From NCBI GenBank assembly GCA_018457135.1, contig JAGGDU010000220.1, positions 1-64,000 of the forward strand: DNA of 64,000 bases. The letters run 5' to 3'. Both the position numbers and the translations under genes were made by a program. The notes beneath the pieces were generated by a model. That model was not told the DNA's origin, searched no databases, and saw only the letters and a program-made list of their open reading frames with translations. The stretch comes from Trichodesmium erythraeum GBRTRLIN201. Its GTDB lineage: Bacteria > Cyanobacteriota > Cyanobacteriia > Cyanobacteriales > Microcoleaceae. Below are positions 38,765-41,922 of the stretch, one piece after another (within the stretch, counting starts at the first letter, position 1; the number at the start of each line of letters is the position of its first letter).

Positions 38765-39583
38765 TTATTCTTCTTCATTATTATCTTCCAATGATTCCTC
38801 TTCATTGGCACTATCTAAATCTAAATCTCCTTCCGCACCTTCATAATCATCTTCATATTCTTCGTAATCTTCATAATAATCTTCATAGTCTGCTTCTAGT
38901 TGACCATGACGACCTTCATAGATAGCATCAGCCAATTTACCTACTATAAGTTTTATAGATCGAATAGCATCATCATTTGCTGGAATTGGAATATCTACTT
39001 GAGTAGGGTCACAATTAGTATCTAATAAAGAAACAATGGGAATATTTAACTTCTGACATTCCTGAACTGCATTATACTCTCGTCGCTGATCCACCATAAT
39101 TACTCCATCCGGTAGGCGACGCATATTTTTAATTCCACCCAGATATTTTTGTAGTTTAGCCATCTCACGACGAAGAACCGAGGCTTCTTTTTTTGGCAAT
39201 AAATCTAGTGCCTTACTTTCCTCACGACGCTCAAGATCTTTCAATCTTTCTACACGAGTCTTAATAGTAGTCCAGTTGGTTAGCATTCCACCTAACCAAC
39301 GTTGGTTAATATAATAACCTCCGCATCTAGTAGCTTCTTGAGCGATAATACCAGCAGCTTGACGCTTAGTACCAACAAATAAGAATTTTTTTCCTTGTTC
39401 TGAGGCCGTTCTAATATAATTGTAAGCCTCATCCATTAATTGAGCTGTTTGAACAAGGTCAATGATATGAACCCCATTACGCTCTGTAAAAATATATTGG
39501 GACATCCTTGGGTTCCAACGACGGGTCTGATGTCCAAAGTGAACTCCTGACTCTAGCAATTGAGCCAAACTAACAACTGGCAT
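38765..39583 (-). CDS. rpsB: 30S ribosomal protein S2
   Basis: Small-subunit ribosomal protein needed to load S1. 272 residues. The body matches S2 well ([67 protein letters not shown]). The last 50 or so residues are an acidic, Tyr-rich tail made almost only of Asp, Glu and Tyr (for example [18 protein letters not shown]), so the protein is longer than a tail-less S2 of about 220-240 residues. First gene of the rpsB-tsf pair; ATG start with GGAG about 10 bases upstream. Confidence 0.97.
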
Positions 39584-40132
39584 ATTCTATCTCCTATTCG
39601 GGTTAATCCTCCATCCAGATGTATTCCCACAGATTTTTTATCTCTAGAACACCCGATTACCTAGATGTGCGATTTTAGATAACTTTTGTAGTGTAGCATA
39701 TAAAACCCTTAACCAGAACTATAAAATTAGGTAGGGAGATAGGGTGATTGAGAGATAAGGAAATGGTGAATATGGGAGTATTTTTTTACCTTTTTTCCTA
39801 TTCTATTTCTGAATCTCGACTCCTGGGAGATATCTGGGGTGGTTTAAGTTCTCCTCTATTTATTGTCACCAGAGAAATATACGTCAGTCCTATTAAAGAA
39901 AATAAAGTCTAGAGATTGGGTTTCCCAACCACTACAGTTTTTTCTTACGAATTGGTAATTTTTATTCCATAGGTATTGAAGTTATTATTCTATAGATAAT
40001 CCGTAAGTAAAAAAATGCTAATTTGATGAGGTTTGCAGACCACCTGAATAATTTGTAAATCTATAAAAAAAGGTATAATGGCATAGGCATGAATCTAAAC
40101 CACTTTCTATTTCTGAACTCCGGAAAATTTAT
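39584..40132. other. Promoter region of rpsB and empty spacer
   Basis: 549 bases holding the long leader of rpsB-tsf. I see no structured leader element that I could name, and no gene. Confidence 0.4.
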
Positions 40133-40992
40133 TTATACTTGATTAATAATCTTGTCTAATTCATTTTTGATTGTTCCATCATCCCTTAATTTTTTCATAT
40201 CTAAACTAATTTTTTTAACTATTTTGATGCTGGAAAAACCTTCTAAGTTTTCGCACTGTGATATATGGTGATTGTGATTCTTATCCTTTACACTTAAGTC
40301 TCCATATAATAAATAGTCAGTATCATTATTAATAATATTTTTTAAATTTTCATACTTATTATCTACTATTCCTCTAATTCCCTTTAAATTTGTCCTCGGT
40401 ATGAAACTTATTACATTTGTTATATGACATAATGAACCAAATAATATTGCAGCATAACCACCTGATGATACACCCATAAATATTATTTTTTTATAATCCC
40501 TTTTATTTATTTTATCCTTTAAATATTCTGTTGTTTCATCAATATTATTTGAGATACCTTCTATTCCTTTATGATACTAACATTGTTTTGCATCAATATA
40601 AAACCTTAAATCACATTTATCTGCATAGATAGATAATAAATATCTTAAAAATTTAAATGGAAGAATACCTCCCATTAGTAAACTCATTCCACCAAAGAAT
40701 ACTATTAATAATTTAGATACTTTAGACTTACATAATATTACTTTCTCATTTTCTTTGTAATTTACTAATGTTTTCTTAAATAAAGTAGAATTAGGATTAA
40801 GTTTAACAGCCTTGCTATAAGCTTTTATTGTTCATAATTTTGTTTTTGTTTGATGAGAGATTCACCCAAGTAAAAGTAATGCCAGCTAAATTGAGGATTA
40901 ATTTCTATAGCTTTTTTAAAACAGGCGATCGCTTCTTCCAACCGGCACTCCTTATCAAGTTTTCTACCTTGTATAATATAGTTTATGCTCAT
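40133..40992 (-). pseudogene. Broken TPR plus alpha/beta-hydrolase-like gene
   Basis: From an ATG at 40992 the frame reads a tetratricopeptide repeat (CRLEEAIACFKKAIEINPQF, HYFYLGESLIKQKQNYEQ) and hits TAA. A shift of one base restores a second repeat (IKAYSKAVKLNPNSTLF), then LLIVFFGGMSLLMGG and a TAG inside KQC-stop-YHKGIEG. It continues without a break through KIIFMGVSSGGYAAILFGSL, the G-x-S-x-G nucleophile elbow of an alpha/beta hydrolase, to the end. The last 114 codons from an internal ATG (40477) are still open. I infer one original protein of about 285 residues with one frameshift and one nonsense change. Related TPR-hydrolase proteins occur near glycan genes; the substrate is unknown. 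Confidence 0.7.
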
Positions 40993-41256
40993 AATTTTTT
41001 AGATAGATAATTGTTTTACTTTAGTAGATTATATTAGCTTGAAAACTTTTTATTTATCTATAAATTTGTATGTTTTACTAACTGCTGATAAATACGTTCC
41101 ACCAATCATTTCCAATTTTATCGGCAAGCCATACTAAATATAAACAAAACAATTTAGATATTATTTAATATTACCAAAAGGGATTCGATAAAGGATGCGA
41201 TATGAGCTCTATTGAATAATACAACCTATTCAAGATTACTATCAATTATCCATTAA

Positions 41257-41922
41257 TTAAGGGTGTATTTGGCCTAAAATTATTTTTAAGCGATCATAAT
41301 CATCTCTAAGTAGAACACTCATATTTCTACCTGCTTGAACTAACCAATTACGATCCGCTTTTCTGAGTTGATAAATTTCTCGAATAGTAGCTGCAACCAA
41401 AGCATCAACAGGAGCATTACTTAACTGTAACAATGTCCGTAAAAAATCTAACTGATCACTAAACCTAATTATTTCTTTCGGTTCACATAAATAGACTCCC
41501 TGATGAATTTGAGGTGGACGAGGTGGAATATACTGATAAATCCTACCATTTTCTGTTTGAGAACCATTCAAATTTTCTGGGGAAGAAAAACCGACTATTG
41601 CTGCTCGAAACTCTGTCTTTAACATAGCGAAAATTTGCGGTTGTTGCTCCCTTAATTCAGGTAGAGACATTCCTAAAGCTCTAGCTCTATGTACAGAATC
41701 AACCGGCAAAGTAGTAGCATAATAAACTACCCCATAAATCATATTTTGTGATTGTTCATCTTGAGACTTTACCCAAGTACCAAAAGCAGGCATCATAGGA
41801 AAATCTAATTCTTTTGGTTCTAAACATTGAGCTAAAAACTCTGTAGTTGCCGTTTCTATCACTTCAGCTATGTAATTATTTTGGTGATTTGTATTAGCAA
41901 ACTGGGGTAAAGGAAGACGCAT
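41257..41922 (-). CDS. Conserved cyanobacterial protein of unknown function
   Basis: 221 residues, soluble, no signal or span. The N-terminus LPLPQFANTNHQNNYIAEVIETATTEFLAQC leads to a beta-rich domain (FGTWVKSQDEQSQNMIYGVVYYATTLPVDS, IYQYIPPRPPQIHQGVYLCE), and a helical C-terminus (LVAATIREIYQLRKADRNWLVQAGRNMSVLLRDDYDRL). It feels like a well-conserved cyanobacterial family but I cannot name it; the beta-rich segment could be a HAS-barrel-like fold (weak inference). It has its own ATG. The next gene upstream on the same strand is ndhS, 275 bases away. Confidence 0.6.
   Translation of the reverse strand: MRLPLPQFANTNHQNNYIAEVIETATTEFLAQCLEPKELDFPMMPAFGTWVKSQDEQSQNMIYGVVYYATTLPVDSVHRARALGMSLPELREQQPQIFAMLKTEFRAAIVGFSSPENLNGSQTENGRIYQYIPPRPPQIHQGVYLCEPKEIIRFSDQLDFLRTLLQLSNAPVDALVAATIREIYQLRKADRNWLVQAGRNMSVLLRDDYDRLKIILGQIHP

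Follow-up and report, generated by a model that had tools for sequence, protein, structure and literature searches.

In Trichodesmium erythraeum, about 40% of the genome is described as noncoding DNA, with long spacers and many pseudogenes that derive in part from inactivated genes (PMC3655545, PMC4649490). The window considered here is a 64,000-nucleotide stretch of one T. erythraeum contig, and a spacer of 1.7 kb within it raises the question of how such remains come into being. On its minus strand, from 40992 to 40133, translation gives TPR repeats followed by an alpha/beta-hydrolase with a GVSSGG elbow, in a reading frame broken by one frameshift (at about 40830) and one TAG (40579-40577). 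A first-pass annotation of this DNA proposed that the gene had died recently, that the breaks were a sequencing artefact, or that the two halves were still in use. Which of these readings, if any, holds depends on what became of the same gene in related species.

Architecture of the broken gene

The features of the locus and of the two intact neighbours that serve as its anchors are collected in Table 1.

Table 1. Coordinates of the TPR-hydrolase remains and neighbouring genes in the window
Feature	Coordinates	Strand	Description	Basis
TPR part	40826..40992	-	ATG at 40992; one full TPR and the beginning of a second; TAA after 55 codons	Translation; TPR_2 E=9.4e-8 and TPR_11 E=1.1e-7 for the 55-aa piece
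Frame break	40815..40850	-	Within TPR2; frame also lost here in both relatives, though by a different length	Alignment and frames
First hydrolase part	40580..40828	-	Open frame of 83 codons that spans the remainder of TPR2, the linker and the beginning of the hydrolase; without 33 bp found in L042	Translation, alignment
In-frame stop	40577..40579	-	TAG between C and YHKG, absent from both relatives	Translation, alignment
Second hydrolase part	40133..40576	-	147 codons, then TAA (40135-40133)	Translation; fold from predicted structure
Nucleophile elbow	40474-40457	-	GVSSGG	Sequence
Candidate catalytic His	40270-40256	-	In HHISQ	Alignment of three sequences
LRDDG	within 40133..40576	-	Close to the hydrolase C-terminus	Sequence
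rpsB	38765..39583	-	ORF that we take from its sequence to be rpsB (30S ribosomal protein S2); intact downstream neighbour, synteny anchor and coding control	dN/dS 0.06 vs G006
221-aa ORF	41257..41922	-	Conserved; intact upstream neighbour, synteny anchor and coding control	dN/dS 0.15 vs G006

The two open runs of the hydrolase frame, of 83 and 147 codons, are not a product of chance: in 500 base shuffles of the same stretch (24% GC), the longest run in three frames had a mean of 43 codons and a maximum of 86. The TPR motifs exceed the Pfam cut-off in the window protein, and TPR_11 is matched at E=1e-9 when both parts are joined with X at the breaks. Translation, Pfam and the fold model described below thereby bear out the initial description of TPR repeats and a hydrolase with a G-V-S-S-G-G elbow, split by one shift and a TAG. 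That the two parts once formed a single fusion, as was also supposed, agrees with the frame, which in the window as in the relative L042 stays open from TPR2 on into the hydrolase; relatives in which the TPR and the hydrolase are unrelated genes were not encountered inside the genus. The claim that only two lesions separate the parts holds insofar as both frame-breaking lesions are real, but the window copy also lacks, relative to L042, 33 bp (11 codons, in frame) between the TPR and the hydrolase, and it thus differs by more than the two lesions that break the frame.

The hydrolase half has no Pfam family at the gathering score (best UPF0227, E=0.006), no family in NCBIfam or PHROGs, and no significant match when the PDB is searched by sequence (best E=0.077); a Pfam match of the window protein to the Asp2 family PF16929 was likewise not found, and an Rfam scan of the entire window returned 0 families. 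The read-through hydrolase was modelled with AlphaFold (pTM 0.75, mean pLDDT 68.5), and comparison of the model with PDB structures retrieved esterases, with 81 matches at E<=0.001, a best E-value of 1.4e-5 and TM-scores of about 0.5. By this predicted structure, the read-through hydrolase is of the alpha/beta-hydrolase (serine esterase) fold. The G-x-S-x-G nucleophile elbow is present, and the histidine of HHISQ is a candidate catalytic residue because H158 (first row of alignment A2) is invariant in three sequences.

The same locus across the genus

The hydrolase is present in 3 of the 7 genomes of the genus, the window's own (G000) included. The other two carriers are Trichodesmium MAG_R02 (G006) and MAG_R03 (G005), which are assigned to T. 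thiebautii and to a T. nobis-like lineage, respectively (Koedooder et al., 2022; PMC9189399). The three copies are orthologous, with the same neighbours in every carrier, being flanked by the 221-aa ORF and, at the opposite end, by rpsB and tsf. Both flanks of the pseudogene lie on a single contig in G006; in G005 they are on two contigs, each with the same inverted, IS-like end.

All three copies are broken. In the alignment, G006 has stops in both TPR1 and the hydrolase as well as a shift; it has also gained some 136 bp by insertion, and its 3′ end is tandemly duplicated. G005 has an early stop, several shifts and a truncation at IS-like sequence; homology of the G005 copy with the window ends at 40345, and nothing 3′ of this point is comparable. 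No lesion is identical in all three copies. At one place in TPR2, nevertheless, all three are out of frame, G005 and G006 by the same length and the window by another, and a founding lesion common to the three species at this break appears likely from the alignment.

The terminal sequence in G005 deserves a separate remark. Positions ~1-120 of L043 and the end of L064 are the same inverted sequence, an IS-like element at the point where the pseudogene stops, and on the rpsB side this sequence is followed by the start of an InsA-like zinc ribbon (a weak Pfam match, E=4e-4, below the cut-off). A simple IS insertion was rejected, as the contig ends leave out about 0.5 kb that the window has between the corresponding points; elements may have inserted twice, or an insertion may have been accompanied by a deletion.

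No intact copy occurs in the 7 genus genomes. Among 61 genomes of the family, the listed matches outside the three carriers cover the TPR part of the query only, and the genome of the window itself yields 1 match at E<=0.01, namely the gene remains, with no second copy of the TPR-hydrolase. The stretch upstream of rpsB (window 39702-41243; counterparts L060, L061, and L063) is variable within the genus: three genomes have the pseudogene there, G003 has a PMT_2-type glycosyltransferase gene, G002 tandem repeats and G004 a short spacer. For G001-G003, conservation upstream of rpsB stops near window position 39701, and for G004 it stops near 39684. In G004, the spacer from the 221-aa ORF to rpsB measures about 230 bp and has no match to the pseudogene. 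This genome was considered as an ancestral empty site, a reading rejected because the combined rpsB and ORF tree makes G004 sister to the carrier G005, so that deletion is simpler. Single-gene trees conflict on the placement of G000, and no claim is consequently made as to which carriers are closest.

Coding constraint and divergence

Substitutions at the first, second, and third codon positions of the pseudogene number 30/21/28 between the window and G006 (271 codons), 25/13/14 between the window and G005 (205 codons), and 15/15/15 between G006 and G005. Third positions hence account for 35% (window-G006) and 27% (window-G005) of the changes, as against 70% in the neighbouring genes rpsB, tsf, the 221-aa ORF and mrp, where 174/248 and 172/247 changes, respectively, fall at position 3 (Fisher P=6e-8 for G006 and 2e-8 for G005). 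Codons with gaps or stops were excluded from the counts, as were the G005 sequence 3′ of window position 40345 and the 3′ tandem duplicate of G006; the Fisher tests exclude the neighbour rows of L060-L063, and the tsf row of L060 (dN/dS 0.4, dN 0.20), probably misaligned or in a broken frame, was set aside. The dN/dS of the pseudogene is 0.67 vs G006 (bootstrap 0.43-1.14) and 0.76 vs G005 (bootstrap 0.38-1.55), point estimates below 1 with intervals that both include 1, compared with 0.06-0.16 in the neighbouring genes. A lack of codon-position bias between species is what the loss of coding constraint would produce, and the sequence seems to have changed under no visible coding constraint from roughly the point at which these species separated.

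Divergence of the pseudogene amounts to 0.104 from G006 (89/854) and 0.089 from G005 (57/643), while alignable intergenic DNA of the same stretch gives 0.147 (442/3003) and 0.151 (283/1870), and fourfold sites 0.20 (206/1033, 88/435). Positions 40133-40992 are, in other words, less diverged from L038 and L039 than intergenic and fourfold sites are, despite the absent codon-position bias. Uniform neutrality since the split therefore does not fully fit the locus; the divergence could have been lowered by introgression of the dead block at a later time or by local differences in rate. In simulation, neutrality over the whole estimated branch predicts 3.8 stops, against the 1 seen in the window copy (P ~0.09); P rises to 0.44 if slightly under half of the branch was neutral.

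How and when the gene was lost

In the window, the frame is disrupted, an orthologue stands at the same locus in other species, the genome holds no functional second copy and coding constraint has been lost. Together, these findings make it probable that the remains are a unitary pseudogene whose constraint disappeared at or near the divergence of the species. A TPR-alpha/beta-hydrolase gene would have stood upstream of rpsB in the ancestor of several Trichodesmium species, would have ceased to be constrained at about the time these lineages parted, and would then have gained different lesions in each of them, the block being absent altogether from the close relative G004. The recent death of the gene originally suggested sits poorly with this record, as two more species are broken in other ways at the same place and no codon-position signal is left between species. 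A variant, in which the gene kept working for most of the time that the species were diverging and was then lost independently, and not long ago, in each of them, finds some backing in the mostly lineage-specific lesions and in dN/dS estimates below 1, and a divergence below the intergenic level together with the few stops of the window copy keeps it in contention as an unlikely course of events. Its difficulty lies in the third positions, which show no excess in any of the three pairs although those of the intact neighbours collected 70% of the changes over the same time, and in the loss of frame that all three copies show at one point of TPR2.

Continued use of the halves, whether as two products, a short TPR protein beside a hydrolase remnant of 114 aa, or as one protein recoded by frameshift and readthrough, is very improbable. 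A 55-aa TPR ORF and a 114-aa ORF from the ATG at 40477 are indeed open in the window, but the 114-aa remnant is without the first strands of the fold, and the matching frame has a TGA in G006 and is cut off in G005. The other species are broken differently and the sequence evolved without a codon-position signal; programmed frameshifting or stop readthrough was rejected, since the form of the breaks varies from copy to copy. An error of sequencing or assembly in one genome is the least credible account of all: the assembly is a draft (7.2 Mb, 241 contigs) and both window lesions are single-site changes, but broken copies occupy the same locus in two other assembled genomes and the neighbouring genes are intact. 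Loss of constraint at or near the divergence of the species remains the preferred reading of the locus.

Relatives of the hydrolase and their partners

Full-length relatives of the hydrolase are rare. In a sample of 386 genomes of the phylum, the window protein as query found them in 3, and a three-sequence profile in 13, 10 of which are weak (E 2.5e-5 to 9e-4); among viral contigs, the window protein gave 4 pattern matches, of which 0 were confirmed. The closest intact hydrolases belong to cyanophages (about 40% identity) and to one cyanobacterium, where the enzyme is fused to an oxygenase. In cyanophage S-H9-2, the hydrolase domain of the hypothetical protein QPB08389.1 is about 40% identical over 95% of the query, and that of the S-RIM32 homologue is 38% identical over 91%; unlike the window gene, neither has a TPR. 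In S-H9-2, the hydrolase gene shares 4 bp with the end of an adjacent gene for a 2OG-Fe(II) oxygenase (PF13759, E=1.5e-20; the two genes at L044 7348-8561), and a homologous oxygenase lies at the same place in S-RIM32 (region L045 7348-8547). The S-RIM32 hydrolase is itself split across two frames and annotated only in part. A further relative, at 42%, lies on the viral contig L067. Its neighbours there encode a GDP-mannose dehydratase, an epimerase, a sulfotransferase and an aminotransferase of the DegT type, and a gene for one more 2OG-Fe(II) oxygenase is found at a distance of about 1.5 kb. In the cyanobacterial genome G152 (L040 1285-2631), the hydrolase follows a 2OG-Fe(II) oxygenase domain within one protein (PF13640, E=3.9e-12 for the N-terminal part alone; no such match at E<=0.1 in one scan of the whole 448-aa protein).

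The first-pass annotation recommended a search for the intact fusion in relatives. No such fusion was found in cyanobacteria. Plasmid proteins of the alphaproteobacterial roseobacters Tritonibacter mobilis and Marinovum algicola (29-31% identity, with the L070 protein as query), like the window gene, hold both domains in one protein, but with the hydrolase first, the opposite order, and set in pseudaminic/sialic-acid loci. They are linked to the window protein through intermediates only, L070 and the window hydrolase standing at 20%. Both roseobacter proteins (L084 5980-7137 and L085 5914-7122) are annotated merely as tetratricopeptide repeat proteins.

A better-known enzyme offers a further comparison. 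Asp2 of the accessory Sec system is described as a GlcNAc O-acetyltransferase of surface glycan, with an acetylesterase/acetyltransferase catalytic domain (PMC5578698). The relative L070 weakly resembles its family PF16929 (E=0.002; 17.7 bits vs a cut-off of 28), but accessory Sec genes were not seen among the neighbours here. From the neighbour genes of the relatives and the weak resemblance of L070 to Asp2, we infer that the living gene encoded either a serine esterase or an O-acyl transferase that worked on a glycan or protein of the surface. The enzyme would most likely have been cytoplasmic, with the TPRs as a docking module, and its substrate may have been a cell-surface glycan or glycoprotein.

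Implications for Trichodesmium

The TPR-hydrolase remains are an ordinary pseudogene, and the presence of a dead gene in a spacer of 1.7 kb is in keeping with what is known of Trichodesmium pseudogenes and of the noncoding fraction. It differs from the known Trichodesmium pseudogenes in being single-copy rather than an in-paralogue, and it adds one more gene relic that has persisted in this noncoding fraction across species boundaries. What is modestly new is the unnamed hydrolase family, together with the partners it has: 2OG-Fe(II) oxygenases in cyanophages and in one cyanobacterium, TPRs and nonulosonic-acid genes in roseobacters. These associations suggest a hypothesis on the surface chemistry of phages and their hosts that can be tested. 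On a more speculative and rather unlikely reading, the family may be pictured as having moved between cyanophages and their hosts and as acylating or deacylating, with a 2OG-Fe(II) oxygenase or TPRs, a surface glycan or protein, the pseudogene being a relic of it. If this were true, Trichodesmium would once have had a phage-like surface-modification enzyme and then discarded it, perhaps in the course of an arms race over surface receptors.
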